Shown piece after piece: positions 11,434 to 17,321 of a DNA stretch of 22,008 nt. Source of the stretch: a virus; the IMG/VR virus record IMGVR_UViG_3300029319_000579, positions 1 to 22,008 of that record; one strand, 5' to 3'. The notes beneath the pieces were generated by a model. It did no database searches, was not told the DNA's origin, and worked only from the letters and a program-made list of their open reading frames with translations. The translations under genes and the position numbers were made by a program. Each line of letters begins with the position of its first letter. Position 1 is the first letter of the stretch.

Positions 11434-11611
11434 GGCTTATCAAGAACTACAGAAGAAAACTTCATCGCAAAAAGCAGCAGTAACTTTAAATGCACGTAGG
11501 TATTTTGCTGGTCAAGCGATGGTGGTTCTTATGGGTAATGTTGGTATGAGTATGTCAGAGATAAGAAAAGAAGCATACAAGTGGGCAGACTATATGTTAG
11601 AGAATAACTAG
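11399..11611 (+). CDS. 70-residue hypothetical protein ending the forward block
   Basis: Starts within the previous gene (35-base overlap) after a weak purine-rich AAAG. Residues 1-34 are basic and helical (MKKLTKLEQEAKAYQELQKK), and residues about 35-70 form an Ala/Met-rich amphipathic part ending in MSEIRKEAYKWADYMLEN. It may be a small helical bundle. No family is recognised. Its TAG stop shares four bases with the stop of the convergent 1171-residue virion gene, so transcription of the two arms meets here. No terminator hairpin is visible between them. Confidence 0.65.
   Translation: MKKLTKLEQEAKAYQELQKKTSSQKAAVTLNARRYFAGQAMVVLMGNVGMSMSEIRKEAYKWADYMLENN
11608..11611. other. Convergent shared-stop junction (CTAG)
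   Basis: The four bases CTAG read TAG on each strand: the forward 70-residue gene ends at 11611 and the reverse 1171-residue gene ends at 11608. The two operons therefore meet with overlapping stops and no spacer. No inverted repeat with a T-tract was seen within about 40 bases on either side. Confidence 0.9.
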
Positions 11612-14600
11612 TTTCCCCTAAGTATTTTATTATCTTTAATCTCATCTACCGTTTTTTTAACATCAAAGTATTCTCTGAGGAGTATTAGTTGACCTCTGTT
11701 TAAGTCACCTAAATCCTCAGAGAGTTCTAATTCTTCTCTAGCTTTATCTATCTCAGACCTACTATGTTTTCTAGTTAAATCATATTGTAAGTCTACTACT
11801 GACCCATGGACAGGATGAGAGTCACTATATTGTAATACTATAATTTCTCTTGCAGCCTCTTTAGCATCATTTTTTTCTTTGTCCCATATAGATCTTTGTC
11901 TTTCTATTGATGCGTTTCTAAACCCTTCGTTATCCATAAGTGCTTTAGACTTTGCCTCTATCACAGAGAATAAAATTCTATTATATTCATTAGCAGCTCT
12001 AGGTGCTTGCTCTCTTATCTTTCGTTCTGCATTTAATTCAAAATTACTATAACCAAGCATGTTTAAAAGAGCAGATGTGTCTGTTAACTCAACTGGTCTA
12101 ATACCAAATACTTTTGTCGCTGGCGGTATAATTGTACCCACTGCAGCAGACTGCAACTCTGGACGCTCACCCACAAAGATAGGCATGATGTTATCAAAAT
12201 AACGAAAGGCATCATTTACAAATTTATTGCCTTGTTCTCTATCTATTGTTTTTTGTTGACCCCCTTGAACAACACCAGCCACAATATTAAGTGGTTCTAA
12301 AAATCTTGTACCTGCATTTATAGGTTGAGTAATAATACCCCTACTAACTTTTATTGCAGATCTTTGAACGTCTTCTAACTCTAATCTAAAGGCATGATAT
12401 AATAACTCTGCCATATCTTTCTGAGATCTATCTAAGTTTCTAAGTAAACCTCCTAAAGTAAAGTCTCTAGATATTTGAGATAACATATCTTCTGTTGGTG
12501 TTTCTCCTGCATTAAGCATAGATATAACACGAGCAACAGCTTTAAATAAAGATAAAGGATAGTCAAACTGTTGATTAATTATTGTACCACCTGGAGTTCT
12601 AGTTTCATACAAACCCAAACCCTGTCTTCTTTTTTCATCCTCATCCTGTGATAAATAAGCCACAAAACCAACAGCCACAGTAGCTTTTGCTGATAATTCT
12701 TTATAAGTTTTATCTTTATAAAACCCCATTAATTTACCAAAGAGACCTATAGGACTGGCTTGAAAAGCAAAATCAACAGTGTTGTTAAAAAATCTACCAA
12801 AAGGAATCATTAAACCTATACCAGGTATATTTCTAGCATCCTCAATAGCACCAGCTATCTGACCTAAAGCACCTTTACCTTTATAAGACTTTGAAAAAAT
12901 AGTTTCTAAAGTTCTCTCTACAGCTAATGCTTCTATTCTAGAATACTCTTTAGTTTGCATAAGTTTGCTTGCATTAGGGTCAGTATAAAATTCATCCCAA
13001 CCTTTATTAAATTGTAGTCTTAATGCTTTATCCATTTGAGATACAAATTCTACAGACTTAGTAAATCTATCCTGTGCTTTAACTAAACTAAGCATTTGTA
13101 TCATATCAACAACTTGTTCTGATTTAAGGTCTAACATACGTGCAGTAGATGAAAACTCTCCATCAGTTATAAGTTTAGTTGCATTCTCTACACCTCCAGG
13201 GAGTGTGCTATCTAGTGCCTCCATAGCTTTTGCATTTCTAGATAACATGGTTTCAAAATGTGCTCTGGTCATGCTAGGATCAAGTATTGTCCTACCCTTA
13301 AACAAAGTACTAGCCATGATCTGCTTTGCTATCCTTAAATCGTTGTCTCCTCTATTACCCATAAAGGCTAACTTCTGCAACCCACCTTTACCTAAATATA
13401 CAGTTGCTAAGGCTATATCAGATACAGTGTTAAGAGATGTATGAGCACCCCAACCAATAACATTCAATGCACTTGTAGATGGATTAGAAACTAATAATCT
13501 AATAGTTTTATTCTGTGCATTTACTATTGCATCTGGGGTTAACTCTAAAAACTTTTCAAACCCACTCATCTCTGGATTATCAGTTTCTCTTTTTATTGTT
13601 TTAAAAGGTAGATCAGCCTCAGTAGCAATAAAAGTTTCTACATCTAAATCTTCTATAGATAAAGAGTTTCTATCTGCCACTTGTTTAAGAGCATTTAGAT
13701 TTCTAGCAGACTGACTTATCTTATTTGCAAATGTATCTGCTAGTTTTTCTGGGGTCATCTTCTTAGCAGAGATTTGTCTTAACTTATTGCCAGTGGCTTT
13801 ACGAAAAGCATCTACAAATTCATCCACATCTTTCTGCTCTGATGTTGCAATAATTTCTGCTACCCAATTACCTACATTCTCGTCTGATTCTTCTATCCAA
13901 TAAACATTATTTCTAGCTGCCTTTTGTGATATCCCCTCAAACAATACCTCTTCACCATCCTCTGAGTGTCTACCTAAAAGCAACTCTATAAAAAAATCAG
14001 AATCAAGATCAGAAAGTTCTTGCCCATCTGCAACCCTAGCTTCCCATTTTTTAGTAATAGGTATCTGCATCTCCCCATATTTTATAAGATCCTGTGTTAA
14101 ATCTTTTAGTACATCCTTTCTATTTTCTACACCCCCTGTTACTAATGGTGAAGCCTGAGGTCCAATTTCTCCTCTAGCCATAACTCTACCAGCTTGTATT
14201 CCACCCATAATAACAGAACCAAGGGCAGCAATACCTAGTTGCATAGTGCTAAATTCTTCCTGAACACCTGTTCTTATTAAGCCATTTTGATATAATGCAT
14301 CTGTACCTGCAGCAGCTATTGCATCTATACTAGCAACTGTGGCTATCTCCGCTACAGCACCCTTTTGAATTAGTCTTTTAAAACCTCTGGTATTTTTTAA
14401 CTCTGATGCAAACCTAGCAGCGTTTCTTTGCGTTTCTTTACCTGCTTCTCTTATGGCTTTTTTAAATGCTTCAGCACCTTTTTTCTTTACAGTTTTAGCA
14501 CTTGCACCTGTGCCTGCGGTCTTTTTCATTGCCTCCATAGCTGCTTTTTGACCAACATTAGAAGCAACTCTAACAGATCCACCACCAACAACTTTACCTA

Positions 14601-15123
14601 ATATACCACCAACAGCATTTACAGGGTCTAATAAAAAGGTACGTATATAATCTAAACTACCTTCTACCTTTTCTCCAACAGTAAGTTCTTTGCTAAACAA
14701 TCCTGCCATATCTTCGTAAAGTTTGTAGGCTTTACCTGCCGTAGCCATTTTTACTGGGTCATCTTGTATTCTATTTAAAAATCTTGTCTCCTCAAAATTA
14801 CGAACACTGTTACCTCCACTAACTCCTCTCCTATTATTTAAGAACGCATCCACAAGATTTTCTTTAGATTGTTTTTCTACATATCTTTTACCATAACGAT
14901 CTATCATATATGCTTCTACAACAGAGAACATATTATCATCCTCTGACATATCATTCTCAGAGTAAGTGCCAGCCTCAGGCAACCCTATCTCATTAATTTC
15001 CCTAGTTTTAGTTTCAGTATCTGTTTCATGAAACTTTAGAAAAAAATCTCTAGGTACTACATCTTGAGTTTGTTTGTTATGAAACTTTAGAAAAAAATCT
15101 TCGGGTACTACGTTTTGTGTCAT
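11608..15123 (-). CDS. Large internal virion (ejection) protein, 1171 residues
   Basis: The last gene of the minus-strand operon. Size, position downstream of a lysozyme-domain protein, and composition fit the big internal-core proteins of podoviruses (T7 gp15/gp16 class) that enter the host ahead of DNA. The N-terminus holds two copies of a 17-residue unit with core VVP-x-DFFLKFH (residues 5-15 and 22-32). Residues about 165-320 mix Gly/Ala-rich hydrophobic helices (AVGGILGKVVGGG, LGIAALGSVIMGGIQAG) with a Lys-rich stretch, as expected of a protein that can span a membrane. The rest is long, helical and charged, with no catalytic motif seen. It starts 7 bases after the stop of the 325-residue gene. 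The function is inferred from context rather than from a recognised domain. Confidence 0.75.
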   Translation of the reverse strand: MTQNVVPEDFFLKFHNKQTQDVVPRDFFLKFHETDTETKTREINEIGLPEAGTYSENDMSEDDNMFSVVEAYMIDRYGKRYVEKQSKENLVDAFLNNRRGVSGGNSVRNFEETRFLNRIQDDPVKMATAGKAYKLYEDMAGLFSKELTVGEKVEGSLDYIRTFLLDPVNAVGGILGKVVGGGSVRVASNVGQKAAMEAMKKTAGTGASAKTVKKKGAEAFKKAIREAGKETQRNAARFASELKNTRGFKRLIQKGAVAEIATVASIDAIAAAGTDALYQNGLIRTGVQEEFSTMQLGIAALGSVIMGGIQAGRVMARGEIGPQASPLVTGGVENRKDVLKDLTQDLIKYGEMQIPITKKWEARVADGQELSDLDSDFFIELLLGRHSEDGEEVLFEGISQKAARNNVYWIEESDENVGNWVAEIIATSEQKDVDEFVDAFRKATGNKLRQISAKKMTPEKLADTFANKISQSARNLNALKQVADRNSLSIEDLDVETFIATEADLPFKTIKRETDNPEMSGFEKFLELTPDAIVNAQNKTIRLLVSNPSTSALNVIGWGAHTSLNTVSDIALATVYLGKGGLQKLAFMGNRGDNDLRIAKQIMASTLFKGRTILDPSMTRAHFETMLSRNAKAMEALDSTLPGGVENATKLITDGEFSSTARMLDLKSEQVVDMIQMLSLVKAQDRFTKSVEFVSQMDKALRLQFNKGWDEFYTDPNASKLMQTKEYSRIEALAVERTLETIFSKSYKGKGALGQIAGAIEDARNIPGIGLMIPFGRFFNNTVDFAFQASPIGLFGKLMGFYKDKTYKELSAKATVAVGFVAYLSQDEDEKRRQGLGLYETRTPGGTIINQQFDYPLSLFKAVARVISMLNAGETPTEDMLSQISRDFTLGGLLRNLDRSQKDMAELLYHAFRLELEDVQRSAIKVSRGIITQPINAGTRFLEPLNIVAGVVQGGQQKTIDREQGNKFVNDAFRYFDNIMPIFVGERPELQSAAVGTIIPPATKVFGIRPVELTDTSALLNMLGYSNFELNAERKIREQAPRAANEYNRILFSVIEAKSKALMDNEGFRNASIERQRSIWDKEKNDAKEAAREIIVLQYSDSHPVHGSVVDLQYDLTRKHSRSEIDKAREELELSEDLGDLNRGQLILLREYFDVKKTVDEIKDNKILRGN
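15028..15100 (-). repeat. Tandem 51-base direct repeat at the start of the ejection-protein gene
   Basis: An identical 22-base stretch occurs at 15028-15049 and 15079-15100, 51 bases apart. This encodes two copies of a 17-residue unit at the protein N-terminus with the core VVP-x-DFFLKFH. Outside the core the DNA copies differ, so the duplication is not very recent or is held by selection. Confidence 0.85.
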
Positions 15124-15130
15124 TATCTAC

Positions 15131-16108
15131 CTATAAATAACTATCTGCTTTTCCTGGACCATATGTTAAATCAAAAATTCGTTTTTTCTCAGGACTTGGA
15201 TCTGCTCTTAATTCGTCTATAGATTCTTGAATAGGTGTTGGATAGACGTAGCCTTGGAGTATTGTTTTTCCAATACTAGTTTCTTGAAAACCTTTTAATG
15301 CAGGGTTGGCTTTTATCAACGCCTCAAGTTCTGCAGGGCTACCAAAAGAACTATTTCTACCTGATGGTGTATAATTAAATAATTGTATAAGACCTTTTTG
15401 TTTTATAGATGGTTCCTTACTAAAAACATCGTCTAATATACCATTAAGTTTAGTGTCGTCGGGGTTGTTAATTTGATACATAAGAGCAGGATTAACAATA
15501 CTATCTATTACTATTTTTACCATTGCTTCTTCTTTGGCACTGACTTTTACTGGATCTAATCTAGTTCCTGGTTTTATATCAATAAACACATTACGACCAG
15601 GTGTAGTTACAATGTTATTTAACTTAGAAGCCATGTCAATAAAGTTTTGTTTTCCTTCTTCTCCAACATAAGATTGACTTGTTATCTGTCCAATAATATC
15701 TATCTGTTGATCAACAGGTGCATTAGATGTAACTATATCTATCATAAGGGGGAGATCGAGCAGTTTAACAGAGTTGTTATACTCGGTCTCTTGTTCTTCT
15801 ATAAAATCAAATACCTCTTTTACAGCAAAAGGATCTGTTTTTAATTTATCAAAAAAGTTTTTTTGTGTATCATCAACGAATGTTATATCTTCCAGTCTCT
15901 TTTCTAACTTTATAACAGCTTCTGCTGCCTCTCTGTAAGGCTCGCTACTTCTAAATTTTGCTCTATCTCTATTTCTGGTTAAACCAAGTTCTAACAAAGT
16001 GTTTTCACGAGCAAGAGCTATCTCCTCTTCTCTTTCTTTGTCTGCCCTATCTTCTAATCTTTTTCTTTGATATGCATCATTAAGACCAGCCCATGAAAAT
16101 TTCATCAT
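15131..16108 (-). CDS. Late virion-operon protein, 325 residues, unknown function
   Basis: Lies between the 175-residue and the 1171-residue genes in the late operon and starts by ATGA overlap, with AGGAG just upstream and two consecutive ATGs. Residues about 12-100 are strongly charged and helical (RKRLEDRADKEREEE), predicting a coiled coil. The middle (about 100-230) reads as a helical and strand mix with DLPLMIDIVTSN and PGRNVFIDIKPG, and the C-terminal part is Pro/Gly-rich (YGPGKADSYL at the very end). No enzyme motif is apparent. By position it may be an internal-core or tail-associated protein acting with the large ejection protein. Family not recognised. Confidence 0.7.
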   Translation of the reverse strand: MMKFSWAGLNDAYQRKRLEDRADKEREEEIALARENTLLELGLTRNRDRAKFRSSEPYREAAEAVIKLEKRLEDITFVDDTQKNFFDKLKTDPFAVKEVFDFIEEQETEYNNSVKLLDLPLMIDIVTSNAPVDQQIDIIGQITSQSYVGEEGKQNFIDMASKLNNIVTTPGRNVFIDIKPGTRLDPVKVSAKEEAMVKIVIDSIVNPALMYQINNPDDTKLNGILDDVFSKEPSIKQKGLIQLFNYTPSGRNSSFGSPAELEALIKANPALKGFQETSIGKTILQGYVYPTPIQESIDELRADPSPEKKRIFDLTYGPGKADSYL

Positions 16109-16632
16109 ACTCTCCTAGACATCAGCCCTTGTGGGGTGAGGGGCATATCCTCAGTCTCCACCATTGGCTCTTCTTTTTCTTCAGGCTGCATTTCCATAGG
16201 TTCATCTATGGGCATACCTTGTTCTTTCTTCATTTGTTGTAGGATATCATTAGCACGTTTTGCATCTCTGGTATATTCAATACCATCATCTTGAGCCTTA
16301 TCAAAACCCTCTTCAAATTCTACATCAGCTTCTAGTGCAAGACCTCTAATATATTCATGTAATACTGGCGCAATAATTAGACTAACATCTAAGCTATGTC
16401 TGCCACCCATTACGGCACTACGCAATATACCTTCAACAAGAGACACAAGATCAAGACCTTCTTCTAAAAAATGAAAAGCATCTCTTAATGCTTCTGGTCT
16501 AGTAATGTTATCTATGTGCATATCCAGTGCTTCAAGAGGACTCGCAATATCAGGAGGTCTCTCAAAGCGCATGTTTTTAGGTTCTTTAGTTAATGATTGA
16601 CCTGGAATAGGTGCAGCTAATACTATACTCAT
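16105..16632 (-). CDS. Late virion-operon protein, 175 residues, acidic tail
   Basis: Start and stop both sit in ATGA overlaps with neighbours. Residues about 30-105 form a helical core (PLEALDMHIDN, LEEGLDLVSLVEGILRSAVMGG, SLIIAPVLHEYIRGLALEADVEF). Residues about 105-175 are acidic and Met/Pro-rich, with a run of EEKEEPMVETEDM, and end in LTPQGLMSRRV, a short basic end. This looks like a small helical protein with a flexible acidic tail. It may help assemble the internal core or bind the basic parts of neighbouring proteins. I do not recognise a named family. Its place between the lysozyme-domain gene and two other late genes makes a virion role likely. Confidence 0.7.
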   Translation of the reverse strand: MSIVLAAPIPGQSLTKEPKNMRFERPPDIASPLEALDMHIDNITRPEALRDAFHFLEEGLDLVSLVEGILRSAVMGGRHSLDVSLIIAPVLHEYIRGLALEADVEFEEGFDKAQDDGIEYTRDAKRANDILQQMKKEQGMPIDEPMEMQPEEKEEPMVETEDMPLTPQGLMSRRV

Positions 16633-17321
16633 TCTTCATCTTCTCTCATAAAATAGTCTAATGATACTTTACCACCCTCTAGTTGTATCATAATTTTTTG
16701 CAAATCATTTATTAAGTTTTCAGGAACTTTTTGATCAGGATCAATTCCTATTGTATTAGATACAGTTTTTAAATACTTAGTTGTTTCATTTTCGCTAGGT
16801 GGTGCATACTTGTTAATAAACTCTCTTAATGTTTGTCCACGGGTTTGAGTATCTAATACTATTTGTTTACGCATTGCTAACATACCAGCCTCTGCTGTTT
16901 TAAATCTAGCAAAACCTCCCTCACCTTTTTCTGCACCATCCTGACCTGCAAATCTAAGATTGCCTGGATTATTATTTCTTATAGTCAACGGTTGCTTACC
17001 CTTTTCACCCTTAACAAATATTTGATCGCCTGCCTCTGCTGTTGGTGACAAATCTGTTATTTCTTCTTTTAGTTGCCTATTCTTTGATTTTGCATTTGCA
17101 ATAGCACTTGTTTGACGAACAATAGTAGCTGAACGAGAAGAAAACTCTGCCATTAATTCTTCAACTGGGTCACTAACCCCTAAAGGAGATGTTGTATCAA
17201 CTCTATTACGCCTCATGAAATAAGGTCTATCTGTTTTTCTAACAGCCTTTGTTGTTCTAGCATCCTCTTCAGCTAGTTGGCTTCTTATCTCTTCCAAAGA
17301 TTTTTTAGTATATAGTGCCAT
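16629..17321 (-). CDS. Virion protein with lysozyme-like NNNPGNLR domain
   Basis: A 230-residue late protein. Residues 1-95 are charged and helical (a likely coiled-coil or assembly part). Residues about 112-200 hold a domain seen in phage structural proteins: IRNNNPGNLRFAG (114-126), GGFARFKTAEAGMLAM (135-150), TLREFINKYAPPSENET (164-180) and KYLKTVSNTIGI. That pattern (NNPGN-[LI]-R, G-F-[AT]-x-F, Y-A-P-P-x-x-N) belongs to lysozyme-fold domains thought to cut peptidoglycan during DNA entry. A catalytic Glu could not be pinned down from sequence alone. It replaces the transglycosylase part of T7 gp16 as a separate gene. Its start lies 8 bases after the stop of the 1476-residue gene. Confidence 0.8.
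   Translation of the reverse strand: MALYTKKSLEEIRSQLAEEDARTTKAVRKTDRPYFMRRNRVDTTSPLGVSDPVEELMAEFSSRSATIVRQTSAIANAKSKNRQLKEEITDLSPTAEAGDQIFVKGEKGKQPLTIRNNNPGNLRFAGQDGAEKGEGGFARFKTAEAGMLAMRKQIVLDTQTRGQTLREFINKYAPPSENETTKYLKTVSNTIGIDPDQKVPENLINDLQKIMIQLEGGKVSLDYFMREDEE

Follow-up and report, generated by a model that had tools for sequence, protein, structure and literature searches.

The described systems closest to the one analyzed here are the ejection proteins of phages T7 and P22, NRPS/PKS docking pairs, and the capsid targeting sequence (CTS) of T4, which is cleaved off by the head protease. In the T7 head, gp15 forms an octamer and gp16 a tetramer, as described in PMC11784390, and contacts of the gp16 N-terminal region stabilize the gp15 C-terminus in the periplasmic tunnel, as described in PMC8954989. 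For P22, the parts of PMC8402733 drawn on here report that each ejection protein loads without the others, that the portal is dispensable for loading, that gp20 binds the procapsid through its first 314 residues, and that about 30 copies of gp20 are present to 12 of gp16.

We analyzed a 22,008-nt stretch of viral DNA (IMG/VR record IMGVR_UViG_3300029319_000579, positions 1 to 22,008; hereafter the window). By gene content the window is an HMO-2011-type podovirus, a group assigned from tblastn relatives. Its forward genes encode ThyX, a primase/helicase, a family A polymerase, and a class II RNR, and its virion genes lie on the reverse strand (gene names by reading). Our interest centers on a 1171-aa virion protein and the 325-aa protein encoded immediately upstream of it (Table 1). 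Neither matched a Pfam or PHROG family at E≤0.05, a Foldseek search of the PDB with both models returned nothing at E≤0.001, a PDB sequence search with the family profile of the 1171-aa protein found no credible relative, and tblastn of the 325-aa protein in phages gave no match. The family profile gave short PDB matches to designed armadillo repeats, the best with E 9.1e-5 across 43 positions, which we judged not meaningful. The PDB sequence and fold searches found no link of the window proteins to T7 gp15 or gp16. The two proteins appear to be tied to podovirus ejection proteins (gp15/gp16, gp20/gp16) solely by a putative docking domain and by gene order, and gene order together with P22-type and Pam1 partners suggests a gp16-like role for the 1171-aa protein.

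Table 1. Features of the window, in window coordinates.
Feature	Position	Strand	Residues	Remarks
1171-aa ejection-type protein, gp16-like by position	11608..15123	(-)		carries the N-terminal tail
N-terminal tail, predicted disordered	14989..15123	(-)	1-45	pLDDT <50
Predicted docking peptide, copy 1	15079..15111	(-)	5-15	VVPEDFFLKFH
Predicted docking peptide, copy 2	15028..15060	(-)	22-32	VVPRDFFLKFH
Two tandem 51-nt repeat units	15013..15114	(-)		units 15013-15063 and 15064-15114; spacing 51; 78% identical; 22 nt exact
325-aa upstream protein, gp15/gp20-like by position	15131..16108	(-)		
C-terminal YG domain (putative docking) of the 325-aa protein	15134..15244	(-)	289-325	YPTPIQESIDELRADPSPEKKRIFDLTYGPGKADSYL
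N-terminus of the 325-aa protein	16064..16108	(-)		MMKFSWAGLNDAY
175-aa protein	16105..16632	(-)		conserved PIPGQSLTxEPKN start
230-aa protein	16629..17321	(-)		lysozyme/injection-transglycosylase-like domain

Elsewhere in this gene cluster, the N-terminus of the 325-aa protein carries a motif, approximately M-[AG]-[FW]-[SN]-x-x-G-A, that is conserved in the upstream proteins of many relatives and is possibly a second docking end. The 175-aa protein matches 26 phage records, including HMO-2011, pelagiphages, and Rhizobium and Vibrio phages. The 230-aa protein matches the PHROG families endolysin (E 6.6e-28) and tail injection transglycosylase (E 1.5e-16), and its N-terminus, MALYTKKSLEEIRSQL, is similar by eye to the duplicated tail DYTQKLNDIRSRL of L079, a viral contig.

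A sequence-only reading of the window had described two 17-residue copies at residues 2-35 of the 1171-aa protein, and our analysis confirmed them. Residues 2-18 (TQNVVPEDFFLKFHNKQ) and 19-35 (TQDVVPRDFFLKFHETD) align in register with a 17-aa period, with DFFLKFH identical in both. The self-match score of the tail was 73 against a shuffle mean of 17 and was reached by none of 200 tail shuffles (p=0.005, the floor of this test). TRF at a score of 30 did not report the repeat, probably because its copies are just 78% alike; a near-identical contig (L004) carries the same repeat. In an AlphaFold model built with 37 sequences, the sole ordered part of the predicted disordered tail is a five-residue helix at residues 11-15 and order begins near residue 50, while in the alignment of relatives conservation starts at LPEAGTY, residue 48. 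The low pLDDT of residues 1-45 and the onset of conservation at residue 48 thus indicate that the repeat belongs to a disordered tail preceding the folded body. The 22 bases shared exactly by the two window copies could suggest that the repeat acts as a DNA or RNA element rather than as a protein motif. However, of the 495 residues identical between copies in 72 distinct tandem pairs, 161 are encoded by different codons, and conservation of the copies in unrelated phages is at the protein level; we regard the nucleic-acid explanation as close to refuted.

We then compared this tail with those of homologues. An alignment-based scan yielded 80 viral loci and 86 ORFs of at least 900 aa, of which 66 remained after dereplication, 61 of them with a tail of at least 12 aa. 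A significant tandem repeat (shuffling, p≤0.035) was present in 45 of these 61 tails, as two to four copies of some short peptide, and the peptide differs among relatives: FFDQFD, FFEQFH, YFDKYL, GFTxEEL, DPFAxVTL, NPFG, LPEGFR, IPEWALP, SYQFIP, KYSxLLxxL, and others. The 16 tails lacking a significant repeat include 'YPQY' tails and those of L007-L009, which are closely related to the window's protein. Three phage isolates with 23-27% identity to the 1171-aa protein, CRP-207, CRP-603, and CRP-9, are also without the motif. The sequence-only reading had held that conserved homologues devoid of the motif would speak against a docking role. Such homologues do occur, but most of them carry another tandem peptide instead, and the three types tested come with a partner domain of their own. 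One branch (L037, L042-L045, L049, L050, L053) has a non-repeated tail, for example IQDLRDNYPQYIDLTDDQLAEKY, in place of a tandem peptide.

Tail type differs even between near-identical bodies (L028/L029, 99.7% identical; L057/L058, 99.3%; L063/L065, 96.9%; L018/L026, 96.0%). The tails of L028 and L029 are LPEGFRxV x2 and GFTxEEL x2, and the exchanged DNA runs from 106-145 bases 5' of the start codon to base 82 of the gene, with flanks showing 99.7% DNA identity up to -106/-145 and 99.35% from +82. These limits indicate that the tail and the C-terminus of the upstream protein were replaced together. Types of upstream C-termini follow tail types, the co-varying part being roughly 40 residues at the end of the upstream protein; L063/L065 is a counter-example, in which the tail peptide type differs and the upstream C-terminus is constant. 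A partial Mantel test of tail against upstream C-terminus, given core and upstream body, showed a correlation of modest size within the family (r=0.189, p=0.001, 54 loci). The clearest single case is L039/L010, with cores 44% identical, an upstream-body similarity of 0.11, and similarities of 0.61 for the tail and 0.63 for the C-terminus. Co-exchange is partly due to linkage, because the two halves are usually adjacent. Separately, the 57 records returned by tblastn of the LPEGFR partner domain all had E≥1, and many were named tail or tail fibre protein.

Tails of different types on 99% identical proteins would also be expected if the tail faced the host after ejection, as a receptor, protease, or defence target, and varied to escape recognition. 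However, the same peptide types, each with its own partner domain, occur across phages of different sources and hosts. As seen so far, with an informal comparison for host, peptide type tracks the phage partner domain and not the host, and we find a host-facing role very improbable.

The upstream C-terminus in the window forms a predicted three-helix domain, which we call YG. It is the highest-confidence part of the 325-aa model (pLDDT 90-93; helices at residues 294-302, 306-316, and 320-324), and an HMM built from other phages only matched it with E=9.6e-5 at Z=1000. Pfam returned nothing at E≤10 for six docking peptides and domains. Staphylococcal nuclease, the best PDB match of YG (E 0.15, in variants sharing EFNEKYGP), was judged a chance match. 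On the peptide side, the two copies of DFFLKFH lie within about 60 residues of the N-terminus and are a variant of an N[PFY]F[DE][QR]F-like consensus, with no exact match to it. The window therefore contains both parts of the FFxxF/YG pair as defined here, the N-terminal peptide and a C-terminal YG domain on the protein encoded upstream on the same strand.

Matches to the C-terminal domains outside the family were found by tblastn in Pam1 gp14, two metagenomic phages, and CRP-235. In each, another protein starts with the matching peptide: NFFDQFD in Pam1, NFFDQFD/NYFDQF and NFFDQFD/NFFDRFD in the metagenomic phages, and GFTLEELG/GFTLEDL in CRP-235. An annotated ORF separates the two partner genes of Pam1. 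A search with a DNA pattern encoding NPFDQFD, which took no account of the domain, identified at least 120 viral stretches. The YG HMM (E<0.01) matched 94 of the 120 contigs listed, 93 of them in a different ORF. All 93 pairs among the matches listed have both genes on one strand and YG upstream, nearly always at or near the C-terminus. Some of the 26 listed contigs that show no YG are perhaps explained by contig ends. Among the matches listed, 115 NPFDQFD proteins carry the peptide in one copy (51), two copies (63), or three (1), so two copies are not obligatory. No PHROG match was obtained at the thresholds used for 17 of 20 representative pair-carrying proteins. As a control, the NFF form of the peptide was searched in bacterial genomes, giving 118 stretches, 48 of them without an ORF of 50 aa. 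YG accompanied 6/6 N-terminal tandems, 2/30 N-terminal singles, and 0/34 internal cases (a class that includes one tandem), indicating that in bacterial genomes the NFF-type peptide is mostly chance. A separate search of E. coli genomes gave no match.

Several of these phages show variations on the arrangement. In L114, L134, L139, L154, and L164, the peptide-bearing protein has an extra NPFDQFD-type copy farther in, some 170-280 residues from its start. YG in the Pam1-like phages L115, L126, L159, L172, and L186 gives way to a terminal stretch rich in glycine, which contains FP (as in GGFP) and may represent a further motif. A single tail in L345:3260-6433 (+) has different peptides in series, NFFDQFD, then PWTKY/PWEKY, then PPPGYVLDQ, which would fit docking of a single protein to several partners. 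In two T7-like Roseobacter phages, YG lies at the N-terminus of a large internal protein (CRP-804 gp34, L112:13992-17645, with two YG copies; CRP-361 gp38, L442:4480-8409), and neither phage has a clear FF peptide partner. The upstream protein of CRP-361 has NPFENQ near its N-terminus, and the pair may be inverted in this phage.

Three peptide/domain pairings emerged from the comparison: FFxxF with the three-helix YG, GFTxEEL with a domain we call VVT, and DPFAxVTL with one we call LT. They do not mix. YG was found in 0/65 GFT loci, VVT in 0 of the 120 NPFDQFD loci listed, and LT only in DPFA loci. In viral contigs with GFTLEELG, VVT was present in 6/6 N-terminal tandem cases, which represent two phage groups and are partly contigs already known, and in 0/59 others; within the family table it accompanied 5/5 GFT tails. 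With DPFAxVTL, LT was present in 12/14 N-terminal cases, most of them homologues of the window's 1171-aa protein, and in 0/6 others; the two misses are a 49-aa ORF and an edge-cut contig whose longer copy, L060, has LT. Against circularity, we rebuilt the YG HMM from 83 sequences of NPFDQFD contigs alone; these are external in sequence, but the family HMM had served to gather them, so their selection is only partly independent. The rebuilt HMM, the one that gave E=9.6e-5 with the window's 325-aa protein, matched 17/18 FF-like family loci and 2/38 others. The latter two, L007 and L009, are close relatives of the window protein that have YG without an FFxxF peptide, as L008 does weakly, and no clear FFxxF peptide was found elsewhere in the L007 and L009 contigs.

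The proximity of the two halves offers another account of their joint exchange, namely a recombination hot spot at the gene junction, where neighbouring termini are swapped together without binding each other. Partners lie within 100 nt in 78/93 pairs among the matches listed, and the swapped cassettes cross the junction. However, 13 listed pairs are more than 200 nt apart (two of these distances being inflated, since the motif counted is internal), and the pair is kept despite an intervening ORF of at least 50 aa in 8 of them and despite the ORF in Pam1. Single-linkage BLAST of the bodies minus their docking parts placed 87 motif proteins in 17 groups and 89 YG proteins in 27 groups, among the matches listed, so the pair sits on non-homologous bodies, and pair types remain unmixed. 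Linkage leaves unexplained why unrelated phages repeatedly combine a given peptide with one and the same domain, and a hot spot without binding seems quite unlikely to us.

Instead, we propose that the duplicated peptide is probably a docking short linear motif (SLiM) in a disordered N-terminal tail. It would bind YG at the C-terminus of the protein encoded upstream, tying two ejection proteins together. The proposal is built from sequence, combining the repeat, the predicted disordered tail, joint cassette exchange, the pair on unrelated proteins, and three unmixed pair types, and these patterns suggest direct contact between peptide and YG. A docking peptide at an exposed end, as the sequence-only reading had it, is supported by the predicted disorder of the tail, its co-exchanged cognate domain, and its recurrence at the N-termini of unrelated phage proteins.

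That reading had further supposed that the peptide binds the portal or recruits the protein into the procapsid. The tail would then be a head-loading signal for portal, scaffold, or capsid, like the T4 CTS, an idea that suits its exposed N-terminal position and the entry of T4 internal proteins into the core by an N-terminal signal (PMC3012670, PMC8402733, in the parts drawn on). Yet a phage using such a signal should bear it on further internal proteins as well, and matches to the tail peptides within the N-terminal 120 aa of the remaining ORFs were at background in these partial contigs (49/960 vs 254/4493 at score ≥30); the window does not reach the scaffold and portal genes. It would also leave the link to the upstream C-terminus without a reason. 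We therefore consider a loading signal unlikely. Rather than to the portal, our results point to the neighbouring upstream ejection protein, whose C-terminal domain would be the partner. Recruitment into the procapsid is doubtful, and the independence of P22 loading from both the portal and the other ejection proteins, as reported in PMC8402733, favours a role in joining the proteins of the ejection assembly.

On the docking model, the tail peptide would engage the compact YG domain of the protein encoded immediately upstream and so link two ejection proteins within a single assembly, the equivalents of gp20 and gp16 in P22 or of gp15 and gp16 in T7. This would take place in the core within the head and/or in the conduit after ejection, so that the pair would act in ejection assembly rather than as a procapsid-loading signal. 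The contacts of the gp16 N-terminal region with the gp15 C-terminus in T7 offer a physical precedent. Two copies may allow one large protein to hold two smaller ones, or may raise avidity. More broadly, and tentatively, with the odds slightly against us, tailed phages might join their ejection proteins by mutually exclusive peptide/domain 'plugs', at least three of which are shown here and perhaps ten by tail types. Such plugs would spread among non-homologous proteins as compact DNA cassettes and so allow phages to recombine their ejection modules, with a copy number of 1-4 tuning how many partner subunits are held.

The YG consensus also finds P22-type gp20 in IME10, Sf101, phiKp_30, Aeromonas 4_4512, and Skarpretter, with weak E-values (6e-4 to 0.3) and always at the C-terminus of gp20-type genes, which are annotated as DNA transfer, injection, or ejection proteins or as 'released from the phage upon host infection'. 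The next, gp16-type protein starts with NPFDQFD in 4_4512, NVFDQFD in Skarpretter, NPFDQFD x2 in ZP9, and NPFAQF x2 in DSL-LC05. The gp16 of Sf101 and phiKp_30 and the frame after IME10 gp20 start with MANYRDLLEQ; there the canonical peptide is absent and YG is present. The T7 octamer and tetramer and the ~30:12 ratio of P22 loosely fit two peptide copies. We do not rely on this stoichiometry, because three P22-type gp16 proteins lack the canonical peptide and 51 of the NPFDQFD proteins noted above carry a single copy.

Ejection proteins are so divergent that many stay unannotated. A docking code of short pairs would allow interacting ejection proteins to be found by sequence in unknown phages and would explain the mosaic evolution of these proteins. 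The pair would also provide a directly testable handle on the cohesion of the DNA-delivery machine, P22-type laboratory phages included. In the open-access literature covered (titles and abstract openings), we found no description of such ejection-protein pairs. We rejected the notion of a categorically new mechanism, as peptide/domain docking pairs are known elsewhere.

Among known systems, P22-type gp20-gp16 is alike in having YG at the gp20 C-terminus, with the peptide at the start of the next protein in 4 of the 7 records inspected; it is unlike in that IME10, Sf101, and phiKp_30 lack the canonical peptide, and its protein bodies were not found to be related to the window proteins. T7 resembles the arrangement proposed here in that the large ejection protein uses its N-terminal region to contact the C-terminal part of the middle-sized one, but the parts of PMC8954989 drawn on describe an extended gp16 stretch, residues 157-228 behind the transglycosylase domain, rather than a terminal tandem SLiM. 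The T4 CTS is likewise a short N-terminal signal on internal head proteins; as described in PMC3012670, it is common to many internal proteins and targets the scaffold core, whereas the window peptide, within the partial contigs, is found on one protein and tracks the upstream C-terminus. NRPS/PKS SLiM-beta-hairpin docking differs in that the pairs described here are on phage virion proteins, with an N-terminal peptide in 1-4 copies and a C-terminal domain, and in that YG is predicted to be three-helical rather than a beta-hairpin, making this a likeness without shown homology. As described in PMC9113145, however, such docking likewise joins a disordered terminal peptide to a small folded domain on the terminus of the next protein; the pairs are complementary, set the order of subunits, and are transferable from one system to another.
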